DNA from: a virus | IMG/VR virus record: IMGVR_UViG_3300045965_000122 | Span: 1 to 30,580 of that record | DNA length: 30,580 nt | Reading direction: 5' to 3' (one strand) | Made by a program: the position numbers and the translations under genes | Shown: positions 2,301-30,580 of the stretch, piece by piece | Numbering within the stretch: the stretch's first letter is position 1 | Layout of the letters: every line of letters begins with the position of its first letter | The notes under the pieces: model-generated | The model's database searches: none | What the model was told of the DNA's origin: nothing | What the model saw: the letters and a program-made list of their open reading frames with translations, nothing else

Positions 2301-4676
2301 ATGGGCCTGATGGCGACGTGGATGCGGCGGGTGATCGCGGAAGTCCGCGGGACGTGGGTCGGGCCGATCACGGCCAACTCGCCGGAGATCGCGCGGCTGT
2401 TCGGTGCGCCACCCACTACGACCGGCGTGGCCGTGTCTGAGCACACTGCGCTGACGTACTCGGCCATCTGGGCCGCCGTCTCCGTGATTGCCTCTCAAGT
2501 GGCCTCATTGCCGCTGATTCTCTACAAACGGCTCCCAACCGGCGGCAAAGAGCGCTTACTGCGCCATCCGTTGTACCGACTCCTGCACGATGAGCCCAAT
2601 TCCGAGATGACGGCGCTCGTCTTCCGGGAAACGCTCCAGGCGCACGTGCTCCTGTGGGGCAACGCTTACGCCGAGATTGAGCGGGATGGATCTGGACGGC
2701 CGGTGGCGCTCTGGCCGCTTCCACCGGACCGCGTCACGCCGTATCGCGAGTCGGCCGGCCTGCGCTTGCGGTACCGCGTGCGGAGTGCCGACGTCACCGG
2801 CCGCGATGTGCTCTTCGATCCTATCGACATGCTGCATATCCCCGGACTGGGGTACGACGGCACATGCGGCTATTCGGTGATCGGGAAAGCGCGCGAGTCC
2901 ATCGGGTTGGGCCTCGCGGCGGAACGGTTCGGCGGCACGTTTTTCGGGAATGGCTCGACCTTCGGCGGCGTGCTCGAGCATCCCAAGCAGCTCGGCGAGA
3001 TTGCCCAGAAGAACCTGCGTCAGGCCATTGAAGCGCGGCATCAGGGCGTCGATCGCGCCCATCGGTTCCTGATCCTTGAAGAGGGGATGCAGTACAAGCG
3101 GACGGGCATCCCGCCCAACGATGCGCAGTTCATCGAGACGCGGAAGTTCCAGATCGCGGACGTGTGCCGGTGGTTCAACATCCCGCCGCACAAGCTGCGG
3201 GACCTCGAGCGGGCCACCTTCAGCAACATCGAACAGCAGTCGATCGAGTTCGTGACCGACACGTTGCGCCCGTGGTTAGTCCGGTGGGAACAGGAGCTAA
3301 ACCGGAAACTGGTGGCGCCGACGGAGCGCAATATCCAGTTCGCCGAGCACCTGGTCGACGGGTTACTGCGCGGGGACATCGCGAGCCGCTACGCCGCGTA
3401 TGCGGTCGGGCGCCAGTGGGGGTGGTTGTCGGCCGACGACGTGCGCGAAAAGGAAAACATGAACCCGCTGCCGGATGGCTCAGGGCAGCAATACCTCGTC
3501 CCGTTGAACATGGTGCCGGCGGGTCGCATGGATGAAGTCATCGACAAGCAGGTCGCCCCGGCCCCGCCGCCTCCGGCCCCCGCGCCACCGCCGGTACCGG
3601 AGGAGGACGATGAGGAGGACGACGACGACCGGTCCGCCATCCTCGCCGACCTCAACGAGCGCCTGATGGAAGCCCACCGGCACCAGGACGAGGCACGAGC
3701 CGAAGCGGCGGCCGAGCGCGAGGCCCGCGCGCTGGTCGAACAGCACGCCGTCCTGACGGCCACGGAACGCGCCGTGCTGGCCGAACGGGAGCAGGCGGCG
3801 CAGGCCCGGGTGGAAGAGACAACCGCGCGCCTCGCGGCCCTGGAGGCACAGGTCGACGCCCTTGAAGCGGCCCGCGCGGCGACGACGGCCCAGCACGAGG
3901 CGGCGCTCGCGCAGGCGACACGGGAGGCCGAGTCGGCCGCGCACCGGGAGGCCGAGGCCGACGCGCGCGCGAGGGCGGCCCTCCTGGCGGCGGACACCGC
4001 CCAGCAGGAGCTCGTCGCGCTGCGTGAACGGCTCGACGAGGACATCCGATCGAATCGGGCGCTGGCCTTGGAGGAACAAGCCGCCCTCGTGGCGCGTCTG
4101 GCGGAGGCCGAAGCGCAGAGTGCCGCCACGGCGGCGGCGGCCGAACGCGCCCAGACGGTGGCCGACGAGGCCCTCCGGGCGCGCGAGGCGGCCACAGAGG
4201 CCAGGGTGCAGATTCTCACCGAGCTCGAGTCGCACCGCGCGTCGGAGGCGGCCCGCGTCTCCTCGGTCGTCGCGGCGCATCGGGCTTTGTTCGTGGATGC
4301 TGCGGGCCGACTCCTCAGGATCGAAGCCGACCGAGCCAGACGCGCCCAGGCCACGCCCGAGAAGCTGCGGCGCTGGATCGAGACGTTCTATCCCATCCAT
4401 GAGGACGTCTGCCGGATGGCGTTTCTGGCCCCGCTGCGCGCCCATCTCGCCTGGATGCAGTCGGAGGCCGACCCGGGCGAGGTGGCCGCGGCGATGGCGG
4501 CGCAGCATGTCGCGGAGTCGCGGCGACAGTTGCGCCTCGTGCTGGAGACCGAGGCTGGCGACGTCAATGAATCACTCGAGACGGTGTTGCGGCGCTGGGA
4601 GACTGACCGCGCCGACCATATCGCCGATCAGGTGTTACAGGAGGCGGTGACGTATGTCCGGACGACCACCAGGTGA
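2301..4676 (+). CDS. HK97-type portal protein with long coiled-coil C-terminal extension
   Basis: The portal forms the dodecameric ring at one capsid vertex through which DNA enters. Residues about 1-410 are a complete HK97-like portal: LTYSAIWAAVSVIASQVASLP near the start, RKFQIADVCRWFNIPPHKLR near 281-300, then DLERATFSNIEQQSIEF, and a closing REKENMNPLPDGSG. After this comes a proline-rich and acidic linker (about 418-443) and roughly 215 residues of Ala/Glu/Arg-rich helix of coiled-coil character. A C-terminal domain (about 665-791) includes DAAGRLLRIEADRARRAQ and RRWIETFYPIHEDV. A similar C-terminal domain occurs in other long HK97-type portals. At 791 residues it is nearly twice the basic length. 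The start is ATG 2301, three bases after terL. The end overlaps the protease gene by 23 bases. Confidence 0.95.
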   Translation: MGLMATWMRRVIAEVRGTWVGPITANSPEIARLFGAPPTTTGVAVSEHTALTYSAIWAAVSVIASQVASLPLILYKRLPTGGKERLLRHPLYRLLHDEPNSEMTALVFRETLQAHVLLWGNAYAEIERDGSGRPVALWPLPPDRVTPYRESAGLRLRYRVRSADVTGRDVLFDPIDMLHIPGLGYDGTCGYSVIGKARESIGLGLAAERFGGTFFGNGSTFGGVLEHPKQLGEIAQKNLRQAIEARHQGVDRAHRFLILEEGMQYKRTGIPPNDAQFIETRKFQIADVCRWFNIPPHKLRDLERATFSNIEQQSIEFVTDTLRPWLVRWEQELNRKLVAPTERNIQFAEHLVDGLLRGDIASRYAAYAVGRQWGWLSADDVREKENMNPLPDGSGQQYLVPLNMVPAGRMDEVIDKQVAPAPPPPAPAPPPVPEEDDEEDDDDRSAILADLNERLMEAHRHQDEARAEAAAEREARALVEQHAVLTATERAVLAEREQAAQARVEETTARLAALEAQVDALEAARAATTAQHEAALAQATREAESAAHREAEADARARAALLAADTAQQELVALRERLDEDIRSNRALALEEQAALVARLAEAEAQSAATAAAAERAQTVADEALRAREAATEARVQILTELESHRASEAARVSSVVAAHRALFVDAAGRLLRIEADRARRAQATPEKLRRWIETFYPIHEDVCRMAFLAPLRAHLAWMQSEADPGEVAAAMAAQHVAESRRQLRLVLETEAGDVNESLETVLRRWETDRADHIADQVLQEAVTYVRTTTR

Positions 4677-8599: not shown

Positions 8600-9217
8600 G
8601 TGATCTCTCTTGAAGTCACGACGAACGCCGGCGAGGTCGCAAGGACGATGGAGGACGTCTCGCGATCATTCCCGTCGGCGCTCGTGTCGGCCTTGCGCGC
8701 CATGCAGCCCGCCGCCGAGCGCGCGATGCGGGCGGAGCTGATGGGCGGGACGCTGCAGATGCGATCGGGTCGTCTCGCGCGATCGGTGCGGTCACGCCTG
8801 GTGCCACGCGGCGACGGCGCAGACTTACAGGTCTCGGCGACGCAGGGGTATGCGGGTGTCCTCCGCCGCGGCGGCACGGTCTCGCCGGCACGCGCGCAAC
8901 TCCTGGCGATTCCCGTCGGCGCGGCGCTCACGGCGACAGGGAATGCGCGCATCAGTGCACGGGCGTTTATCCAAAACCCGGCGGCGTTGGGGTTCAGCCG
9001 ATCGTTTTCGACGGCGCGCGCGATCCTGGGCATCCGGGACGACCGGAGTTACGAGGCGGTGTTCATGCGGCGAGCGAGTGTGCGCATTCCGTCGCGCGAC
9101 TTTGCGGCGGCCGCGGCGCGTCAACTCTCCGCCCAGGCGGAAGAGAAGACGCGCGCCGCGATTGAGACCGCGCTCGCGCCGCTGACGGGAGGCACCTCGA
9201 GTGCCGCCGGCCAGTAG
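8600..9217 (+). CDS. tail completion / neck protein (HK97 gp10-like)
   Basis: The 205-residue protein opens with MISLEVTTNAGEVARTMEDVSRSF and contains AERAMRAELMGGTLQMRSGRLARSVRSRLVP. It continues with a beta segment around DLQVSATQGYAGVLRRGG and a long C-terminal helix. An amphipathic helix, then S/SGxLxxSVR, then YAxxxxxGG, is the pattern of HK97 gp10-like minor tail and neck proteins. The start is GTG 8600. The end overlaps the tail terminator gene by 17 bases, which suggests coupled expression. Confidence 0.7.
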   Translation: MISLEVTTNAGEVARTMEDVSRSFPSALVSALRAMQPAAERAMRAELMGGTLQMRSGRLARSVRSRLVPRGDGADLQVSATQGYAGVLRRGGTVSPARAQLLAIPVGAALTATGNARISARAFIQNPAALGFSRSFSTARAILGIRDDRSYEAVFMRRASVRIPSRDFAAAAARQLSAQAEEKTRAAIETALAPLTGGTSSAAGQ

Positions 9218-10063: not shown

Positions 10064-11224
10064 ATGCCAACCTGGGAGCTTGGACGCAACTTCCGCGTCT
10101 ATGACGCCGCCGAGAGCACCTACGGCACGGCGCCGACCCTCGCCTCGGCCGACGCGATCCGACATATCGGCGGGTCCCTGGCGCACAATCCGAACAACTT
10201 CCAGAACGCGCCGACGCGGTTAAGGGCGGCGACGCTCACCGAGCGCCGCGTCCGTCGGGAGACGGCCGAGGCGACGCTCCGCGGGGAGTTCTGGCCGAGC
10301 GGCACGATCAACACGGTCCCGGATCACGATGCCATCCTGACCGATGCGATGGGCAGTAAGACGAATGTCGTCCTCTCGACGACCGTCTCCGCCGCGCCGG
10401 CGCCGACGTCGACCGTCTTCACGGTGGCCTCATCGGTCGGCCTGGTCGTCGGCGGCGCGGTCCTCGTCAACGCGACGAGCGGTGGCCGCCAGGTCCGCGT
10501 CATCACGGTGAAGTCAGGCGACGAGATCACCGTCGCGCCGCCACTGAGCGCCGCGCCCACATCTGGCGACAGCGTCAAGAGCTGCATCGTCTACTCGCTG
10601 GCGAACCTCGACACGCCCGTGTCTCACACGATGGCGGCGTATGGCATCAATCGAAAGTTCGAGGTCAACGGCTGGATCCTCGACAAGTTGATGCTCGAGT
10701 TCGACAGCAATGGCGAGATCGTCTGGGAGGTGAGCGGACCCGCGAAGACGCGTCTGAAGGGGGCCTCCGTGCAGGCTGAGCCCGTGGCCTTCACGACGGC
10801 CGGCACGGCGATCCCGTCCGGCCTCACGGGGTATCTGCGCCTCGGATCAGCGGCGGAAGAGTTCGTCAAGGCCAAGTTCGAGCTCATGAATGGACACGCG
10901 TTGCAAAACAACGCCTATGGGACATCGACGCCGCAAGGGGCGTTCAGGAAGGCGCAGTTTCGACAGGTGCGGTTCTCGGTGACGATGCAGGCCTCCGACG
11001 ACTCGACGATTCTGGATGCCGCGACGGCGCGCACGCAGCAGGCCGGCATCCTGCAGACGGGGCTCACCGAGGGGCAGATCATCGGCGTCTACTTCCCGAA
11101 ATGGGAGATCGACACGCCGCCCGGGCATGACCTGGGCAGCGTCGAGGACTACCAGGAGGAGTACAGCGGGACGCTGCTCGGCACATCGACCGGCAACGAC
11201 GAAGTCAAGATCCTGATCGCGTAG
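10064..11224 (+). CDS. major tail tube protein
   Basis: This is the likely tail tube subunit, stacked as rings around the tape measure. The 386-residue protein begins GRNFRVYDAAESTYGTAPT, a usual tail tube start. It continues with RRETAEATLRGEFWPSGTIN. An extra beta domain (about 100-185, rich in Val, Thr and Ala, with VGLVVGGAVLVNATSGG and VRVITVKSGDEITVAPPL) appears inserted, so the protein is longer than minimal tube proteins. The C-terminal part (FRQVRFSVTMQASDDSTI, then YFPKWEIDTPPGHDLGSVEDYQEEYSGTL) resembles the closing strands of this group. ATG 10064 follows AAGGAG at about 10049-10054. Its place before the chaperone-slot genes and tape measure is standard. Confidence 0.8.
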   Translation: MPTWELGRNFRVYDAAESTYGTAPTLASADAIRHIGGSLAHNPNNFQNAPTRLRAATLTERRVRRETAEATLRGEFWPSGTINTVPDHDAILTDAMGSKTNVVLSTTVSAAPAPTSTVFTVASSVGLVVGGAVLVNATSGGRQVRVITVKSGDEITVAPPLSAAPTSGDSVKSCIVYSLANLDTPVSHTMAAYGINRKFEVNGWILDKLMLEFDSNGEIVWEVSGPAKTRLKGASVQAEPVAFTTAGTAIPSGLTGYLRLGSAAEEFVKAKFELMNGHALQNNAYGTSTPQGAFRKAQFRQVRFSVTMQASDDSTILDAATARTQQAGILQTGLTEGQIIGVYFPKWEIDTPPGHDLGSVEDYQEEYSGTLLGTSTGNDEVKILIA

Positions 11225-11372: not shown

Positions 11373-12275
11373 ATGCTCAAACTCACCAGCACATTCCCCG
11401 TTCCGATGACGATTGACGGCGAGACCGTCACGATCCAGATCAAGCGCTTCGCGACGCCGGAGGAGGCGACAGAGTTTCTCTTCGCGTGCGATCGGATGTT
11501 CAAGGAGGCGCAAGCGCCAGACGGCACGATTGACGAACAGCACGACATGGAGCGCCGGCATCGGGCCTTCGTGCGGGAGTCCATCGAGAAGTACGTCACG
11601 CTCGAACCGGGCCAGATCGAGGACGACGGGAAGATGGTCACCGACGGCGCCGCCTTCGTGCGCGCGTTCGCCAGTCGGCAAAGCATCCTCTCCCAGGTGC
11701 TCGCCCGCATCCGCCTCGAGAACACCTACTCGAAGCAGGATCGCGAGTACGCCAGGGCCCGCCTGGCGCCCTTCGTGCCGACGCCGCCGGAAGTCGTCGA
11801 GGCCATGCTTGACGCCGCCTGTATCGGCGAAGGGGACACCGTGATCGACGTTGGCTGCGGCACGGGCGGGCTCCTGGTGGCAGCCGCCAAGCGGGGCGCT
11901 ACGGCGGTCGGCTACGAGCTCAATCACGGCCGCGCGCAGCAAGCAATGGCGGCGGCCGTCGAGGCCGGCGTCGCCAATCGCGTGCACGTCCATCGGCAGG
12001 ACGCGATGACGGTGCCAGCGGAGGCCTGGCGCGCCGCGAAGGCCGTCCTGATGTATCTCCTCCCTGAGCCTCACCAGAAGCTCGGAACGACGCTCAAGAC
12101 GGCGCTTCTTCCTGGTGCGCGCGTCGTCTGTCACGGATACCCGCTCGGCGACGACTGGCCGCCGGCGCTCACGACGCGCTACATCCCTCCGATCGAGGTC
12201 GACAACATGACGCCGCCGCCGCCGCCGCGGATCGACGCCGCGGTCGGCTGGGTCTACGCGTACGAGGTCCGATGA
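11373..12275 (+). CDS. tail-assembly-chaperone-like domain fused to a class I SAM-dependent methyltransferase
   Basis: The 300-residue protein lies where siphophages carry the tail assembly chaperone, between tube and tape measure. Residues 1 to about 128 are an N-terminal domain with IDGETVTIQIKRFATPEEAT, YVTLEPGQ (74-81) and FVRAFASRQ (95-103), matching the N-terminus of the next gene. Residues about 132-300 are a complete methyltransferase. They have the pre-motif FVPTPPEVVEAML, motif I VIDVGCGTGG (157-166), acidic E182 in GYELN, D210 before the motif IV-like LMYLLPEPHQKL (226-237), and HGYPLGDDWPP near 254-264. The PTPxxVVxxML and YLLPE motifs resemble bacterial DOT1-like/FAM173-type protein lysine methyltransferases. 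Substrate is unknown; a virion or host protein is possible. GAGG at 11362-11365 precedes ATG 11373. Confidence 0.85.
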   Translation: MLKLTSTFPVPMTIDGETVTIQIKRFATPEEATEFLFACDRMFKEAQAPDGTIDEQHDMERRHRAFVRESIEKYVTLEPGQIEDDGKMVTDGAAFVRAFASRQSILSQVLARIRLENTYSKQDREYARARLAPFVPTPPEVVEAMLDAACIGEGDTVIDVGCGTGGLLVAAAKRGATAVGYELNHGRAQQAMAAAVEAGVANRVHVHRQDAMTVPAEAWRAAKAVLMYLLPEPHQKLGTTLKTALLPGARVVCHGYPLGDDWPPALTTRYIPPIEVDNMTPPPPPRIDAAVGWVYAYEVR

Positions 12276-12282
12276 GCGCGAT

Positions 12283-13047
12283 ATGCGGGCCTCGCGGCCG
12301 ATCGTCGTCTCGATTGATGGACAGGAGGTCCGGTTGCTCGTCCGCCCGTTGACCGTCGCGGCGACGACCGCCCTGGTCGCCTTGGGCGCCTCGAGGGGCC
12401 CGTCGGCGACGATCACGCATGCGCCAGGCGGCCTCTCCCTCATCGCGTCCTATGTCGACCTCCCGGCCGGTCAGGTCACCGTCGACGACCGACCCGTCGA
12501 GTCCGCCGAGGAGCTCGTCAGGCTCTTCTCAGGGCGCCAGGAGGTCCTCTACCGGATGCACCAGGCCGTCATCGCGACGACGCGTCTGAGCGACGCCGAG
12601 CGCCGAGAGCTCACGGTCGCCGTCCGGTTCCTGTGGTGGCTCCCGTCGGCCGTCGGTCAATGGAAGGAGACCGGCGCCTCGTGCCGGAAGTGCATCGACG
12701 CGGGCCTCTGTGGGTCTCGAGGCTGTGACGGGACGACGCAAGTCGGACTCTCCGGCAAGCCGCGGGCCGTCTGGCATGACGCGAAGCTCGTCGTCAACGT
12801 CTGCCCGGTCCGAAGCCTCACGCCGGCCGTGGAGGCGGTCCTCGTCTGGTTCTCGGCCTGTTACGGCGCCCAGGAGGGCCGGTATCGACGGATCGCCCTC
12901 CCGGATGTCGGCGGCGTCGGGCATCAGGACGCCTGGCTCCTGGATGCTATGGCGCACGTCGCCCACGTCCGGAACGAGCTCCTGCACGAACACGAGCGCG
13001 CCGGGTCCGCCCGATCGACGCCGGCTGATGACGGGGACGGTGACTGA
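12283..13047 (+). CDS. second tail-assembly-slot protein with a cysteine cluster
   Basis: The 254-residue protein begins with a domain homologous in pattern to that of the previous gene. It has SIDGQEVRLLVRPLTVAAT, YVDLPAGQ (57-64), LVRLFSGRQ (78-86) and SDAERREL (103-110). It then carries a compact cysteine group, C134-x2-C137-x5-C143-x4-C148, with further Cys at 174 and 193. This could bind zinc or another metal. A C-terminal helix with NELLHEHERA and an acidic tail follow. The gene is seven bases after the previous stop and overlaps the tape measure start (TGATG), so the pair belongs to one translation unit. Its position implies tail assembly; the Cys domain is not recognised. Confidence 0.8.
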   Translation: MRASRPIVVSIDGQEVRLLVRPLTVAATTALVALGASRGPSATITHAPGGLSLIASYVDLPAGQVTVDDRPVESAEELVRLFSGRQEVLYRMHQAVIATTRLSDAERRELTVAVRFLWWLPSAVGQWKETGASCRKCIDAGLCGSRGCDGTTQVGLSGKPRAVWHDAKLVVNVCPVRSLTPAVEAVLVWFSACYGAQEGRYRRIALPDVGGVGHQDAWLLDAMAHVAHVRNELLHEHERAGSARSTPADDGDGD

Positions 13048-16000
13048 TGGCTGAAGTCCCCGTCGACATTCTCATCAAGGCCCGAGAGATCGTCAAAGGG
13101 GCCTTCGACATCACACAGCAAGAGCTGCGAGAACTGGACGGAGAGGTCGAGAAGGTCGGGAAGTCCAGCCTGGGGATGCGGGACGGGATCGGCGCGGCGA
13201 GTGGCGCGCTGTCGGTCATCGCCCCGGTGATCGCCGCCCTTGGCGTCGGCAAGCTCGCGATGGACTTCATCAACCTGGGCGGGGCGGTCTCCGATGGCGC
13301 CGCGAAGCTCGGCGTGAGCACGACGGAATACCAGCGGTTCAAGTACGCCGTCGAGCAGACCGGCGGGAGTGCCGGCAACCTCGGCACGGCGATTACTACG
13401 CTCAACAAGAAGCTCGCCGGAGGCGACGACAGTACCGTCGATGCCCTCGCGCGTGCCGGCCTGTCCTTCGCGCAGATCCGCGCGATGGAGCCTGGGCTGG
13501 CCTTCGAAGCGGTCGCGGACGCCGTAGGAACCATCCCTGACCCGATGACGCGCTCTCGCGTCGCGATGGATCTCCTCGGAAAGGGCGGCGCGGACCTCCT
13601 GCCCGCCATGATCGCCGGCTTCAAGGAGCTCGGCGACAAGGCGGAGCGGACCGGGCAAGTCCTGAGCGAGAACGCTGTCGAACAGATGGACGCGCTAGGC
13701 GACAGTATCGACACGGCGATCGGAGCCGGGAAGAACCTGATTGGGCTCGTGCTCGTCCCTCTCGCGCCGCTCCTCAAAGAGGTCGCCGACATGGCGTCAG
13801 ACCTCGGCGGCGGCCTCCAGCGCCTCTTCGACGGCGACTTCAAGGGTGTCTACAACGACCTCGTCCTCTGGAAGTCTGGAATGTCGGACGTAGTCCGAGA
13901 GGCGAAGGAATTCGAAGACAGCCTCGAGGACATCGACAAAAAGCTGACCACCGTTACGGCGACCATGAGGAAAGGCCTCATCGGGGAGGCCGGTCAGGCG
14001 CCCGACTTCAATTTCAAGGAGCTCGAAGCGGCGGCGGACAAGCTGACCGGCACGATCAAGAAGGGGTGGGAGGACTCCGAACGCGCCGCGACGGCCGCGG
14101 CCGCGAAGATCAAGGCCGCGCAACAGGAGCTCACCGGCGCGTCGGCGCTCAAGGCCGCCACTGACTACGCCGCGCGCGTGAAGGAGATCGGCGGCGTCAG
14201 TGAGTTGTCGGTGACCGGCATCAAGAAGGTAGCCGCCGCGATCAAGGAAGTCGAAGACGCCGGGAAACCCCTGCCGCCCCTCCTCGAGGATCTGAAAGGC
14301 GAAATCGAAGGCGTCACCTTCAAGACGCGCGAGGCGCTCAAGCCATCGTCGGAGTTCGTCGGCATCATCCAGCAGTGGGGCGTCAAACTCCCGCCGGCGA
14401 CCGATAAGACGAAGGAATTCCGCAACGAGCTCGAGGGCCTCACGGCGAAGGGGCTCATCCCTGTCACGCGATCATTCGGCGACCTCTTCGACCAAATGGG
14501 GAAGGCGCCCTCGAGGACCGAGGGCGTGACGTTCGGCGCAAAGGCGATCCGGGATTCGCTCGTGCCGGCCGCGAAGGCCACCGTGGACTGGACGGGGGTC
14601 CTCGGCGAGCTCACCGGCGCGCTCGATAACCTGGCGAGCAGCGGCGGTCCGTTGGCGGGCGCCGCCGGCCTGGTCGCCGACTTTACGAGCGCGCTCGGAA
14701 TCGGGATCGGCCAATGGAAGACGCTGGGCGAGACGGCGCGGACGGCCTTCAGCGGCACGCTCCTGGACGCTGAAGGCAATTCGATCGAGGCGACCTCTCA
14801 AGAGCGGATCGCGGCCATCGTGTCGATCGGCGCGGCGGTCCTGCAGACGATGGCGCAGATCGACGCCGCCGTCGCGAAGAATCGAGACGCCGGCCGCGGG
14901 CAGGGTATCTCAGTCCTCCAAGGCGCCCTCTCCGGCGCGATGACGGGCGGCGCCCTCGCCGGCCTCCCAGGTCTCCTCGTGGGAGGCGCCGCCGGCGCGG
15001 TCTACGCCGCCTGGCAGTCGTCGCGGTCGAGCGTCAGTACCGCCGTCAAGCAAATCGGCGTGGACATCGAGAGCATGCTCGGCTTATCTGTGAGCTCCGG
15101 CCTGGCGGAAAAGATAGACGCCGACGTCGGGCGCTTCTCGGCGGCCGCCGAGAAGGCCTTCGAAGGCGCCGGGAAGCGCATCGCCGGACGCGTCGAGACC
15201 ATCTCGCGCCGCGCCGCGGAAGTCTGGAACCTCGACGCGCTCATCGAAGAAGCCGGCGGCCTCAACGAGCTGAACTTCGACGGGTTCATCGCCCAATTCA
15301 ACGAGGCGATCTCGTTGATGCAGGACGGCGTCTTCACGGCCGGCGAGATGGAGGACGTCTTCCGGCGCGCCTTCCCGGAGATGGCCGCCTTTGTCGCAGG
15401 GTCCGGCGAGCTCGCGACGCGGGAGTGGACCAGGTTCATCGAGCGGGCCGGTCAGCTCCAGGACAAGATCGAAGAAGTCACGACGTTCGTGCTCGATCGC
15501 GCGGGGTCACTCGCCGCCTCGGTCGCGGGCATGATCAGTCCGCTCTCGAAGGAATACGGCGGCCTGGCTGAGGAAATCGCGGCCGCGCGCGAGAAGGTCA
15601 ACGCGGCGACGGACGACGAAGCCGCGGCGTCCGCTGCAGTCGCCGAGCTCAACGCGCTCCTCGAGCGCCAGGCGACCGGCGTCGCCGAGGTCGGCGACGA
15701 CTTGCAACGGATGGGCGTGCTCGCCCTAGCCGCGTTCAACCAGGCGCGGCAACAGGGCGGCACGTTCCTGGAATCGATGCGGGCGATCGGGCCGGCGCTG
15801 ACGGAGATCCGCGAGCTGCAGGAGAACCTCCCAGGGCTCGAATCCCAGAACAACGCGGCCCTGACCTATCTCCTCTACTACAACCAGCTGATCGAGACAG
15901 CGCCGGAGCTCGTCAACGCCGCCGAGAGCATCAACGCGGCGACGGTGGCGCTCTCACAGATGGGCGCCCTCGGCGCCGAGGAGCTCTCCGCGCTCGGCGG

Positions 16001-16748
16001 ACAGGCGGTCGACACCTACAACCAAATGATCGAGAAGGGCTTCCAGCAGAACGAGTCCCTCTCGATGATGCAGGACTTCCTCCGGAATGCGCGCCAGCGC
16101 TACGAGGAGCTCGGCGTCCCGATCGACGAGAACACGCAGCGCCTGCTCGAGATGGCGGAGGCTGCCGGCATCGACACGGAACCCGTCGAGACGATGACGA
16201 GCCAGATGACGGCGCTCAAGGATGGCCTGGGCGAAGTCGTCGGGACCCTCAAGGAAGGGCTCGGCACGCTGATCGAGCTCCTCGGCGGGGATCTGCCGGA
16301 CAAGTGGAAGGAGTCCGTAGACGCCGCGCGCGAGGCGCGCGCGCGGACGACGCCGGAGCTCCAGAAGATCGAGGAGGCCGCCGGCGAGGTGGGCGACGGG
16401 ATCGGCGATGTGACGACGAAGGCCGAGGACCTTGGCGCGACGTTCGCGGAGGCCGACTACAGCAGCGCCCTCGACGACGGGCGCGACGCCGCCGACCGAT
16501 TCCGCGAGGCGCTCGAGGACGTCAACCGGACGATCTCCGGGATGTCCTCGCCGGACTTCTCTCTGCCGACGTCCTCGTCTGACGTGGGCGCAGCGGGGTC
16601 GCCGTTTGCGCAGGCGCGAGACCGCGTGATCGCCGCGCGCATCCCGAGCGCGGTGAGAATCCCCGTCTTCATCGGTCGGCGCCAGATCGCCGAGGCGGTC
16701 TACGAAGACCTCCCCGCCCTCCTGCAGGGCCGCGGTGCGCTGGTGTAG
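13047..16748 (+). CDS. tail tape measure protein
   Basis: The tape measure sets tail length and later helps DNA ejection. This 1233-residue protein is mostly helical with coiled-coil stretches. It has two hydrophobic regions: ASGALSVIAPVIAALGVG near 52-69 and ALSGAMTGGALAGLPGLLVG near 630-650. The N-terminal region (LGVSTTEYQRFKYAVEQTGG, DLLGKGGADLLPAMIAGFKELG) is typical of TP901/lambda-type tape measure cores. At roughly 0.15 nm per residue, a tail of about 180 nm is expected (general rule, not measured). The start overlaps the previous stop. A strong AGGAGG leads into the next gene. Confidence 0.93.
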   Translation: MAEVPVDILIKAREIVKGAFDITQQELRELDGEVEKVGKSSLGMRDGIGAASGALSVIAPVIAALGVGKLAMDFINLGGAVSDGAAKLGVSTTEYQRFKYAVEQTGGSAGNLGTAITTLNKKLAGGDDSTVDALARAGLSFAQIRAMEPGLAFEAVADAVGTIPDPMTRSRVAMDLLGKGGADLLPAMIAGFKELGDKAERTGQVLSENAVEQMDALGDSIDTAIGAGKNLIGLVLVPLAPLLKEVADMASDLGGGLQRLFDGDFKGVYNDLVLWKSGMSDVVREAKEFEDSLEDIDKKLTTVTATMRKGLIGEAGQAPDFNFKELEAAADKLTGTIKKGWEDSERAATAAAAKIKAAQQELTGASALKAATDYAARVKEIGGVSELSVTGIKKVAAAIKEVEDAGKPLPPLLEDLKGEIEGVTFKTREALKPSSEFVGIIQQWGVKLPPATDKTKEFRNELEGLTAKGLIPVTRSFGDLFDQMGKAPSRTEGVTFGAKAIRDSLVPAAKATVDWTGVLGELTGALDNLASSGGPLAGAAGLVADFTSALGIGIGQWKTLGETARTAFSGTLLDAEGNSIEATSQERIAAIVSIGAAVLQTMAQIDAAVAKNRDAGRGQGISVLQGALSGAMTGGALAGLPGLLVGGAAGAVYAAWQSSRSSVSTAVKQIGVDIESMLGLSVSSGLAEKIDADVGRFSAAAEKAFEGAGKRIAGRVETISRRAAEVWNLDALIEEAGGLNELNFDGFIAQFNEAISLMQDGVFTAGEMEDVFRRAFPEMAAFVAGSGELATREWTRFIERAGQLQDKIEEVTTFVLDRAGSLAASVAGMISPLSKEYGGLAEEIAAAREKVNAATDDEAAASAAVAELNALLERQATGVAEVGDDLQRMGVLALAAFNQARQQGGTFLESMRAIGPALTEIRELQENLPGLESQNNAALTYLLYYNQLIETAPELVNAAESINAATVALSQMGALGAEELSALGGQAVDTYNQMIEKGFQQNESLSMMQDFLRNARQRYEELGVPIDENTQRLLEMAEAAGIDTEPVETMTSQMTALKDGLGEVVGTLKEGLGTLIELLGGDLPDKWKESVDAAREARARTTPELQKIEEAAGEVGDGIGDVTTKAEDLGATFAEADYSSALDDGRDAADRFREALEDVNRTISGMSSPDFSLPTSSSDVGAAGSPFAQARDRVIAARIPSAVRIPVFIGRRQIAEAVYEDLPALLQGRGALV

Positions 16749-26420: not shown

Positions 26421-27173
26421 ATGGCTGACTTGCCGATTTGGCAGCTCTCAGAGCTGACGTCGCCGGCCCTGGTGGACCTGCTGTTGGCGGTCGACAGCCC
26501 CGGCGGATCGCCGGCCACGAAGAAGCTGGCGCTGTCGGATTTCCTGTCGGCGCTCGCGCTGAGCAACGTCGTCGTGCAAGTAAAGGCCCTGGGTTCCAGT
26601 GGCACCTATACGCCTACGTCTGGCATGAAGAAGGTGTTGGGGATCGCCGTGGGGGGCGGCGCGGCCGGCGGCAACGCCAGCGCGACGGACTCGGCCAGCG
26701 GCGGGGGCGGAGGAGGCGGCACGGTCATCCGGCTGATGACTGCGGCGCAGATCGGATCGAGCAAGTCGTATGCGGTCGCCAACGATTCGATCACAGGCGG
26801 TAACTCGACGACATTGGACACGGCCGGGGCATTGATGAACGCCGGCGGCGGCTCGGCGGGCACGCAGGGCGCGGGCTTCTCCGTCGTCGGGGTCAGCGTC
26901 GCGGGCGGCGCCGGCGGGTCCGCGTCGAATGGCGACATCAACATCCCCGGCCAGGATGGGCAGCGCGGCATCATCTACTCGGGGACGAACGGGTGGGGCG
27001 GGTGCGGGGGTAGCTCCGCCTTCGGGTTCGGCGGGGAGGGCGCGAACGGCGCGGCTGGTGGGAACGGCAAAGTCTACGGCGGGGGCGGGGCCGGGGGCCA
27101 CGCGGCGACGACGAGCGATCGCAATGGCGGATTCGGCGCGGGAGGAATCCTTTACCTCATCGAGTTCATCTGA
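26421..27173 (+). CDS. glycine-rich tail fibre/adhesin, copy 1
   Basis: The 250-residue protein begins with the common fibre N-terminus LSELTSPALVDLLLAVDSPGGSPATKKLALSDFL. It then has GTYTPTSGMKKVLGIAVGGGAAGG and a long Gly-rich body with runs of Gly, closing with GGILYLIEFI. Glycine-rich phage adhesins (such as those of some T4-like phages) fold into packed polyglycine helices with variable receptor loops. The same arrangement is likely but not shown here. It is a paralogue of the next gene, overlapping it by one base (TGATG). Confidence 0.75.
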   Translation: MADLPIWQLSELTSPALVDLLLAVDSPGGSPATKKLALSDFLSALALSNVVVQVKALGSSGTYTPTSGMKKVLGIAVGGGAAGGNASATDSASGGGGGGGTVIRLMTAAQIGSSKSYAVANDSITGGNSTTLDTAGALMNAGGGSAGTQGAGFSVVGVSVAGGAGGSASNGDINIPGQDGQRGIIYSGTNGWGGCGGSSAFGFGGEGANGAAGGNGKVYGGGGAGGHAATTSDRNGGFGAGGILYLIEFI

Positions 27174-27931
27174 TGCCTGACGCAAAGATCACCGAGCTGA
27201 CCGCGCTGACGACGCCGACGACCGACGACCTGCTGGCGATCGTGGACGACCCGTCCGGCACGCCGGTCACGAAGAAGATCACGCTGGCGAACCTGCTCAC
27301 GCTGTTCCTGTCGAACGTCTCGGTGCAGGTGCTCACGAGCAGCAGCGGCACGTACACACCGACGTCGCTGATGAAGAAGGCGCTCGTTATCGCGGTCGGC
27401 GGCGGCGGCGGCGGAGGGTCCGTGACCGGCACGGACCAGAACGGCGGGGGCGGGGGCGGGGGCGGAACGGTCATCCGCCTCTTCACGGCGGCCGAGATAT
27501 CGGGGCACGACGGGTACGCGGTCGGCGCCGCGTCGTCCGCCGGCGGCGCGGGCAACAACACCACGTTCAGCTCCTCTCCAACCCTGCTCACCGCGGGCGG
27601 CGGCGGCGCGGGAACGGCGTCAGCAGACTCGACGACGCTGGGCACCCAGGGGTCCGGCGGGGCCGGCGGCACGGCGACGGGCGGCGACCTGAACATCCCA
27701 GGCGAACCAGGGGGGCGAGGGGTCACCTACTCCACGGCCGACGGATGCGGCGGCGCTGGCGGCCGGTCGGTCTTCGGCGCCGGCGGAAACCAGACCGGCA
27801 CCGAGGCGGCGGGCGCGAACGGGTCGGCGTACGGCGGTGGCGGGTCTGGCGCGCATTGCGCTGGCGGCACCGACCGCAACGGCGGCACCGGCGCCGCCGG
27901 CGTGATCTACGTCATCGAGTTCCTTGACTGA
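27173..27931 (+). CDS. glycine-rich tail fibre/adhesin, copy 2
   Basis: This 252-residue protein has the same plan as the previous one. The N-terminal ITELTALTTPTTDDLLAIVDDPSGTPVTKKITLANLL, GTYTPTSLMKKALVIAVGGGGGGG, a GTVIRLFTAAEI block, a Gly-rich body and the closing GVIYVIEFLD all align with it. The inner Gly-rich loops differ most, as expected for receptor-facing parts. It overlaps both neighbours by one base (TGATG at each junction), so the three fibre genes are likely co-translated. Confidence 0.75.
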   Translation: MPDAKITELTALTTPTTDDLLAIVDDPSGTPVTKKITLANLLTLFLSNVSVQVLTSSSGTYTPTSLMKKALVIAVGGGGGGGSVTGTDQNGGGGGGGGTVIRLFTAAEISGHDGYAVGAASSAGGAGNNTTFSSSPTLLTAGGGGAGTASADSTTLGTQGSGGAGGTATGGDLNIPGEPGGRGVTYSTADGCGGAGGRSVFGAGGNQTGTEAAGANGSAYGGGGSGAHCAGGTDRNGGTGAAGVIYVIEFLD

Positions 27932-29235
27932 TGGGCAAGCTGCTACAGGAAACCGGCTCCGGCATCTTCCAGGAAGACGGAGCTTCGTATGTGCTCTCGG
28001 ACACCAGTGCCGGTGCCGTACTTGAAGCATCGGTATCAGGCGCTGGAACGGTCTCGGCCGATCTATCTACACAAATCACAGCCGCGGCGGCGATCTCCGG
28101 TTCTGCGACTCTCGCGGCCGTCCTCACCACCGCGATCACGCTAGCCGCGGCGGCCAGCGCAAGCGCGACGGTCACCGCCGATCTGACGACCGCGATCACC
28201 CCGGCCGCGGCGCTCTCCGGCGTGGGCACCGTCACCGCCGATCTTACGACGGCGATCCCGCTGGCATCGGCCGCCACGGGCACGGCCACCCTGACGGCCC
28301 TCCTGACCAACGAGGCCGCGGAGTTCGTCGCCGCCGCCAGTGGCACCGGCACGGTCGCCGCCGACCTCACTACGGCGATCAAGTTCAGCGCAGCGGTTGC
28401 CGGTACCGGGACAGTGGCCGCCGACCTGACGACGGCCATCACGCCCGAGGCGGCCCTGGCGAGCACCGGCACCCTGACGGCAGATCTCACGACCAGTATC
28501 GCGCTGGCTGCAGCCAGCGCGGGCACCGGCACGGTCACGGCGGACCTCACCACCGCCATCACGCCCGTGGCGGCCCTCTCAGGGACGGGCACGGTCACCG
28601 CCGCGCTGACGACCCAAATCACGCTGGCGTCGGCGCTGTCAGGCACGGCCACGCTGACGGCGGAGCTCCAGGGCGCCGGCGCGGCACTCGTCGCGTCGGC
28701 GGCCGGATCAGCGACGGTGACGGCCGACCTAACCACGGCAATCCCGCTCGCCGCGGCTCTCGCCAGTGCTGGCACGCTGACAGCGGAGCTGACGACGGCG
28801 ATTCGGCCCGAGGCGGCCGTCAGCGGATCCGGCACCATCACGGGCGACCTCACGACCGAGATCCCGCTCGCGTCGGCGGTGTCTGGAACCGGCACGGTGG
28901 CCGCCGACCTCACGACCGCGATCCCGCTCGCCGCGGCCACCGCGGGCACGGCGACCGTCACGGCGGACCTCACCACGGCGATTCGGCTCGCGGCTGTCGC
29001 GCAGGGCACGGCGACGGTCGAGGCGGATCTGGACACGGGCGCGGACAATTTCGTCGCCTCGGCCACCGGCACGGCCACCGTGACGGCCACGCTGGCCACG
29101 CCGGTCGTGTTCTATCAACAACCCGTGCTGCGGACCTCGGCGCTGGGGACGGTGTCCTTGTCCGTCACGGCACCACTGAGCGACCTTGATCTCGTGACGT
29201 CGTCGATCGCCGATCTGGCGTTTACTGGAGACTGA
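27931..29235 (+). CDS. repeat protein of 18 ~20-residue units in three super-units (fibre-like)
   Basis: After a 30-residue N-terminus (MGKLLQETGSGIFQEDG) the protein is built from 18 consecutive units of pattern AALSGTGTVTADLTTAIT, rich in Ala, Thr and Gly. Unit lengths are 20,20,20,20,22,19, then the same series twice more, giving three 121-residue blocks (31-151, 152-272, 273-393). A 41-residue non-repeat C-terminus follows (VFYQQPVLRTSALGTVSLS). Regular beta repeats like these can form a solenoid or a trimeric fibre shaft. The position after two adhesin genes supports a fibre or fibre spacer. No family is recognised. Confidence 0.75.
   Translation: MGKLLQETGSGIFQEDGASYVLSDTSAGAVLEASVSGAGTVSADLSTQITAAAAISGSATLAAVLTTAITLAAAASASATVTADLTTAITPAAALSGVGTVTADLTTAIPLASAATGTATLTALLTNEAAEFVAAASGTGTVAADLTTAIKFSAAVAGTGTVAADLTTAITPEAALASTGTLTADLTTSIALAAASAGTGTVTADLTTAITPVAALSGTGTVTAALTTQITLASALSGTATLTAELQGAGAALVASAAGSATVTADLTTAIPLAAALASAGTLTAELTTAIRPEAAVSGSGTITGDLTTEIPLASAVSGTGTVAADLTTAIPLAAATAGTATVTADLTTAIRLAAVAQGTATVEADLDTGADNFVASATGTATVTATLATPVVFYQQPVLRTSALGTVSLSVTAPLSDLDLVTSSIADLAFTGD
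28021..29109 (+). repeat. three tandem 363-base super-repeats made of ~60-base units
   Basis: Blocks 28021-28383, 28384-28746 and 28747-29109 each code for 121 residues, in unit lengths 20,20,20,20,22,19. The fifth unit of each ends in a related break in the pattern (EAAEFVAAA, AGAALVASA, GADNFVASA). DNA identity between blocks is clearly lower than protein pattern identity, so the duplications are not recent. Confidence 0.85.
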
Positions 29236-29783: not shown

Positions 29784-30580
29784 TCACGCCGTGGCTTGTT
29801 GCTGAAAGTCCGGCGTGCCCTCCTTGGGTGCCCTCCGAAGGAGTTCGAATTGCGCCATTTGGATAGCGGTGACAGGCGGCGCGTAGATTGCCGTGGTCGT
29901 CGCGCTCGTGTGGCCGAGCGTGTCGCGCACGTCCTCGACCGCAACGCCGGCCGAGCGCAGCGCCGTCGCGACGGAGTGCCGCAATTGGTAGACCGTGATG
30001 ATCGGAATCTCCAGACTGCGACACGCTCGCGCGATCATCCGATTCGCGAGCGCCGTGTTGAAACTGCCGGCGGCGCGCGCCTCGAGGAACGCGGTGGCCG
30101 CGTCGACACCTTCCGGCATCACGAGCGGCACGCGCGCCGCCTTTCCGCCCTTCGCGCGCGGGATGAGCACCGACGGGAGCGTCGGATGTTCGAGGTCGAA
30201 CGACGTATTCGGATCGAGCCGCGCGATCTGCGCCGGGCGCGCGCCGGTCCATCGCATCAGTCGCACGCGCGCGACCGTGGCCCCGCGGCGCGCGCGATTA
30301 CGCGAATGATGCATCGCCTCGATGATGCGGTCGATCGTCTCGAGCGGCACGCCCCGCGCGACGGGATCGGGTTTGCGAAAGCGAATGCATCCTCGGGCCG
30401 GGTTCGCCGCGGCGGGCCCGTCGAGCACGGCGAAGAGTTGCGTGATCGCGTCGAGGCGATGTGAGCACGTCGACGCCGACAAGCCGGAGGCGCGCCATGC
30501 CTGCAGCTGAGCGTTGATCTCGTGGCTGCGGATCGTCGCGCGGCGTCGGACGCGGAAGATCGGCACCCAGACATCGAGGC
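29784..30580 (-). CDS. int: tyrosine integrase, 5' end beyond the window
   Basis: This is a phage tyrosine recombinase. Counting from GTG at 30566, the catalytic pattern is Arg110 (TGARPAQIARL), Lys139 (RAKGGKAARVPL), Arg196 and His197 in YQLRHSVATALRSAG, His219 (LGHTSATTT) and nucleophile Tyr228 (AIYAP). The first position of the HxxR box is Tyr193 rather than His, a change seen in some active relatives. The N-terminal core-binding part (SHEINAQLQAWRASGLSASTCSHRL) is present. The frame stays open from 30566 to the window edge (LDVW before the GTG), so the true start probably lies outside. The 3' end faces the attP-like core, as in lambda. The right-hand arm repeats lie within its last codons. 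Confidence 0.92.
   Translation of the reverse strand, partial: LDVWVPIFRVRRRATIRSHEINAQLQAWRASGLSASTCSHRLDAITQLFAVLDGPAAANPARGCIRFRKPDPVARGVPLETIDRIIEAMHHSRNRARRGATVARVRLMRWTGARPAQIARLDPNTSFDLEHPTLPSVLIPRAKGGKAARVPLVMPEGVDAATAFLEARAAGSFNTALANRMIARACRSLEIPIITVYQLRHSVATALRSAGVAVEDVRDTLGHTSATTTAIYAPPVTAIQMAQFELLRRAPKEGTPDFQQQATA
29815..29836 (+). repeat. pair of direct repeats right of attP core (candidate arm sites)
   Basis: GTGCCCTCC occurs at 29815-29823 (within GCGTGCCCTCCT, 29813-29824) and 29828-29836, 13 bases apart, in the same orientation and spacing as the left pair at 29604 and 29617. The repeats overlap the 3' coding end of the integrase gene. Confidence 0.6.

Follow-up and report, generated by a model that had tools for sequence, protein, structure and literature searches.

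The DNA analyzed here, which we call the window, belongs to an uncultured phage and comprises the 30,580 bases of virus record IMGVR_UViG_3300045965_000122. It carries genes for the large terminase, portal, prohead protease, and capsid. A tyrosine recombinase/integrase is encoded on the minus strand at the right end (29784-30566; Phage_integrase, 1.5e-11), and the window phage is therefore probably temperate. In the tail region, where all of the features described below lie on the plus strand, a tail tube (major tail protein) candidate (10064-11224; phrog_290 tail) is followed by a 300-aa ORF (11373-12275), a 254-aa gene (12283-13047), and the gene for a 1233-aa tape measure protein (13047-16748; phrog_8462, 1.3e-17). 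The 300-aa ORF is a single continuous frame that joins a tail assembly chaperone (TAC)-type domain (residues 1-128; 11373-11756) to a class I SAM methyltransferase domain resembling aKMT and FAM173 (residues 131-300; 11763-12272; detected by phmmer, Foldseek, and Pfam). An earlier note on this DNA had placed the fusion between tube and tape measure; the tube candidate does lie upstream, but the tape measure gene does not adjoin, as the 254-aa gene intervenes. Elsewhere in the window, the Pfam portal domain of the portal protein (2301-4676, 791 aa) extends to residue 386, after which come about 400 charged, coiled-coil-like residues. A 434-aa protein (27931-29235) contains tandem repeats of 20 residues (60 bases) in which Ala, Thr, and Gly are abundant, and it is adjoined by two similar glycine-rich genes (26421-27173 and 27173-27931).

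The same note had claimed a methyltransferase fused to a tail-chaperone-slot protein, and we found the full methyltransferase domain within the one ORF, with every named motif where it was said to be: VIDVGCGTGG at residues 157-166, E182, D210, LMYLLPE at 226-232, and HGYPLGDDWPP at 254-264. Third-position GC was 0.88 and 0.85 in the two halves, like that of neighboring genes, and thus both halves look coding. The note had also allowed that the halves might prove to be separate genes with a misread junction. Related phages do carry the N-terminal half alone, but without a neighboring methyltransferase gene, and a misread pair of genes therefore does not account for the junction. The window copy rests on a single contig: L005, which is nearly identical to the window, reaches only to about position 9009, short of the fusion, scans of viral contigs returned no second contig with the window's own fusion, and a whole-protein scan of viral contigs returned no relative of the entire protein. 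An assembly chimera or sequencing error in this one metagenomic contig would fit that pattern, yet it is very improbable given the single open frame through the junction, the similar codon composition on its two sides, the gene end CGATGA common to the fusion and its relatives, and the analogous fusions on other contigs described below. We regard the two-domain architecture as secure and the mechanism proposed below as tentative.

The N-terminal domain (residues 1 to approximately 128) is 36-38% identical to standalone ORFs of 146-147 aa on three viral contigs, which represent two distinct phages (L002 and L003, which are near-identical, and L004). The tube proteins of these phages are 83-85% identical to that of the window, and their gene order runs from tube to standalone gene to a Cys-rich paralogue to tape measure. 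None of the three has a methyltransferase in the tail slot, and elsewhere in the L002 and L004 records the only methyltransferase match was a weak one of 56 residues, in the L002 record. The N-terminal part of the window's 254-aa gene is itself a paralogue of the fusion's N-terminal domain (hhalign 96.7%, E 4.6e-10; BLASTP E 3e-07), and this gene is also kept in L002-L004, at about 39% identity. Its conserved Cys-containing domain (GASCxxC...CDG...CPVRSL) matched no Pfam or PHROG family. Alignment scans with the N-terminal domain and with the 254-aa gene returned the same three contigs and no others, and the N-terminal domain alone was not found in annotated phages. Three Nitrospirota genomes with a tube relative of about 31% identity have a large tube-like ORF upstream of the tape measure and, where resolved, a small ORF between the two.

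Taken together, slot position, homology to the standalone slot gene, and size lead us to read the N-terminal domain as most likely a tail assembly chaperone, a label with no family match behind it: no curated TAC family in Pfam or PHROG matched the domain or its standalone relatives. The fusion gene lies between tube and tape measure, with one further gene before the latter, and its homologues in the same slot are standalone proteins of TAC size, in keeping with the chaperone slot proposed in the earlier note. The AlphaFold model of the domain (pLDDT 84.5) gave weak Foldseek matches (best E 6e-3), although most of those with informative names were tail assembly chaperones; no TAC fold was matched in the PDB.

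A programmed frameshift that yields a longer product is common, although not universal, among TACs. In phage lambda, the tape measure protein is bound by gpG and the tube protein by the T part of gpGT; neither gpG nor gpGT stays in the completed tail (PMC5009743). The window resembles lambda and other TAC systems in having its gene between tube and tape measure, and its group can further be likened to them in having two chaperone-type genes in a row. Unlike that of gpGT, however, the C-terminal extension in the window is an in-frame enzyme rather than a T domain reached by frameshifting. Neither the fusion gene nor its relatives contain a canonical slippery heptamer (XXXYYYZ), and thus the enzyme would accompany every chaperone molecule made. 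A direct gpG-T fusion in phage TP901-1 gave particles that looked complete but were noninfectious (PMC4493119).

Among solved proteins, the methyltransferase domain is closest by both sequence and fold to the archaeal lysine methyltransferase aKMT and to a protein from Salinibacter. Its matches are far above chance: it matched 5bxy at 1.9e-19 and aKMT (5fa8) at 1.6e-17 in phmmer and matched Pfam Methyltransf_25 at 3.2e-08, above the cut-off; 5fad, 5bxy, 5fa8, and 5jwj filled PDB fold ranks 1-5, with Foldseek target-normalized TM scores of 0.80-0.88. The best NCBIfam model was NF041081, the archaeal protein-lysine methyltransferase equivalog, at 57.1 bits against a cut-off of 200, so that the domain is related to aKMT while not having the same function by NCBI's standard. 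The fusion shares the seven-beta-strand, "archaeal KMT-like" fold of the aKMT/FAM173 group (ATPSc-KMT, ANT-KMT), along with the PTPxxVV start (PTPxxVVxxML), the motif I Asp, the acidic end of beta2, and YLLP after beta4. It differs from that group in having GTGG for GDGR, His for the Asn that follows YLLP, and an attached phage chaperone domain. The aKMT/FAM173 group is related to DOT1, and the earlier note had described a DOT1-like/FAM173 resemblance; the FAM173 side of this comparison holds, but DOT1 proper was matched in Pfam at an E value of only 0.1, which makes DOT1-like a distant label.

We also compared the fusion with 29 relatives in alignment. D159, G161, G163, and G165 were invariant in all 30 rows, and G180, invariant across the relatives, is kept in the fusion. 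E182 (11916-11918), at the end of beta2 and by homology part of the SAM ribose site, is Glu or Asp in 29/29 relatives, and D210 (12000-12002), the putative adenine-side acidic residue, is Asp in 22/29. Within LMYLLPE (12048-12068), which follows beta4 at the Post II motif position, Y228 is Tyr or Phe in every relative and L229 is conserved in 27/29. Motif I itself (VIDVGCGTGG, 11841-11870) departs from the family norm, DLGxGDGR, and thus lacks the DxGxGDGR signature of aKMT/FAM173: T164 stands where all 29 relatives have Asp, and G166 where 28 of them have Arg. In addition, C253 replaces a Ser found in 27/29 relatives. The related FAM173B is inactivated by loss of Asp94, its motif I Asp (PMC5828452). 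The earlier note's concern that SAM-binding residues might have been lost therefore divides, since D159, the glycines, E182, D210, and YLLP are retained but D164T and R166G are real changes. On these sequence features, SAM binding is likely and lysine specificity is plausible.

These departures could mean that the domain is noncatalytic and has become a binding module that replaces the T-type domain in bridging chaperone and tube. D164T, R166G, S253C, the Asn-to-His change after YLLPE, and the long branch on which the window methyltransferase falls in our tree are all consistent with this alternative, as is a placement after the G-like domain that matches that of the T domain. We nonetheless consider it rather unlikely, because GxGxG, D159, E182, D210, and YLL are kept, because GCGTGG occurs normally in class I methyltransferases of other kinds, and because the 254-aa gene is already next in the slot, as it is in the enzyme-less relatives. 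It is also conceivable, although decidedly unlikely, that the domain acts on RNA or a small molecule instead of a protein: enzymes of class I are versatile, the top PDB match (5bxy) was deposited as an RNA methyltransferase, and MitM and RebM were among the more distant matches, but lysine methyltransferases (5fa8, 5jwj; NF041081) are the best functionally tested relatives in both sequence and fold, no RNA-binding domain was found in the fusion, and the partner domain is a structural-protein chaperone.

A viral scan with the methyltransferase alignment returned 30 loci, whose ORFs we then read; among them were several kinds of phage-type N-terminal fusion as well as secreted, bacterial-like forms. 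In two records (L076, IMGVR_UViG_3300017766_003652; L077, 3300043219_000162), a phrog_2115 tail domain (2.5e-09 and 1.7e-12, respectively) is fused to the same type of methyltransferase. The N-terminal domain of L077 has a match (E 2e-4) to a protein annotated as a tail assembly chaperone in Paenibacillus phages, where its gene sits between those for the major tail protein and the tape measure. Identity between the L076 and L077 fusions is 36% across the full length, which implies that the fusion has been kept through long divergence. Like the window protein, they place a TAC-type domain ahead of an aKMT-like methyltransferase, and the LAP[FY]VP joint between the two is similar; unlike it, they retain GDGR and are extra copies outside the tail slot. 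Each record holds a second, standalone phrog_2115 gene, which in L076 immediately precedes the tape measure, whereas the L076 fusion immediately precedes the genes for terminase and portal. When compared with Nitrospirota genomes, the L076/L077 fusion gave matches to its methyltransferase part only. Since the window's N-terminal domain has no detectable kinship with phrog_2115 (hhalign 0.1%), TAC-type domains and methyltransferases have been joined in at least two N-domain contexts. Neither a common origin of the window and L076/L077 methyltransferases (AU p 0.34) nor a grouping of the window's with two bacterial rows (p 0.41) was rejected.

At two further loci (L067:4601-5449 and L085:4698-5180), phrog_7759 is fused to the same methyltransferase type. 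These resemble the window in having a phage domain, here of unassigned function, ahead of the enzyme, but the N-terminal domain is a different one and the L067 copy sits among tail-fibre-like genes. A supposed fusion of phrog_7759 to a 2OG-Fe(II) oxygenase was rejected, as the two are adjacent genes in phage DSL-LC04.

Our preferred reading, which we hold tentatively and with somewhat less than even confidence, is that the window fusion is a chaperone-targeted, probably lysine-directed methyltransferase that modifies the tape measure or tube as the tail is assembled. Like lambda gpG, the N-terminal domain would bind the tape measure protein while the tail is being built; the enzyme, in the place taken in lambda by the frameshifted T domain, would be held at the tape measure through its fusion to this G-like domain and would methylate tape measure lysines or those on tube subunits brought there. 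The candidate substrates contain 58 (tape measure) and 12 (tube) lysines. We infer chaperone binding from this analogy, and we likewise infer enzymatic activity, lysine specificity, and tail proteins as the substrate. The slot, the N-domain homology, the paralogue next door, the aKMT-like fold, the conservation of the SAM site, and the recurrence of such fusions argue for assembly-linked methylation. Against it stand D164T and R166G in a near-invariant motif, the long-branch methyltransferase, close window relatives that do without the enzyme, weak TAC fold support, and the lack of a canonical slippery heptamer.

Alternatively, the methyltransferase may target a host protein or another phage protein (for example, in translation, the envelope, or defence), with the chaperone domain giving only late expression, dosage, or oligomer state. 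The broad specificity of aKMT as a protein lysine methyltransferase (PMC8927968) is compatible with this, as are aKMT-like enzymes on other viral contigs that lie beside a portal gene or carry signal peptides. Moreover, because the L076/L077 fused copy lies outside the tail slot, apart from a standalone TAC-type gene, it need not serve tail assembly in those phages. We regard a target of this kind as doubtful for the window, given that its fused copy occupies the tail slot itself and that at least two pairings with TAC-type domains are hard to account for unless targeting matters. As for methylation during assembly more generally, it is possible, although we propose this even more guardedly than the function of the window fusion, that in some phages the tape measure or tube is marked by a lysine methyltransferase tethered to a chaperone, and that chaperone domains of unrelated origin gave rise to these fusions on more than one occasion.

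A literature search that left subscription journals mostly outside its reach returned no account of a TAC fused to a methyltransferase and none of a phage enzyme that methylates virion lysines. The earlier note's statement that no such system has been described thus holds for published counterparts, but the window is not alone, as two further viral contigs carry an analogous fusion. Tail assembly chaperones are not known to act other than by binding. If our preferred reading is true, covalent modification can be part of siphophage tail assembly, a step absent from the papers found. The claim is bounded and testable, predicting methyl-lysine on tape measure and tube, and it gives a reason to seek methylated virion proteins; a natural chaperone-enzyme fusion could also reveal how TACs hold the tape measure.

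Matches to Enterococcus "phage" records (L056, OR846589.1; PQ520405.1) were set aside. The inspected record, Enterococcus phage Efs 1-1-1, looks like host DNA: genes for EF-Tu and ribosomal proteins and one resembling cyclopropane synthase surround the match or form it. IME_EF3 gave the same match. Among the remaining loci, six (L070, L072, L073, L079, L081, and L082) have a phage aKMT-like methyltransferase behind a short uncharacterized N-terminal domain, and in L070 the gene is directly upstream of a Mu-type portal gene. Three others (L052, L054, and L055) encode bacterial aKMT-like proteins with N-terminal signal-like segments, and their genes adjoin amino-acid transporter or permease genes on plasmids of Leptolyngbya, Chelatococcus, and Agrobacterium.
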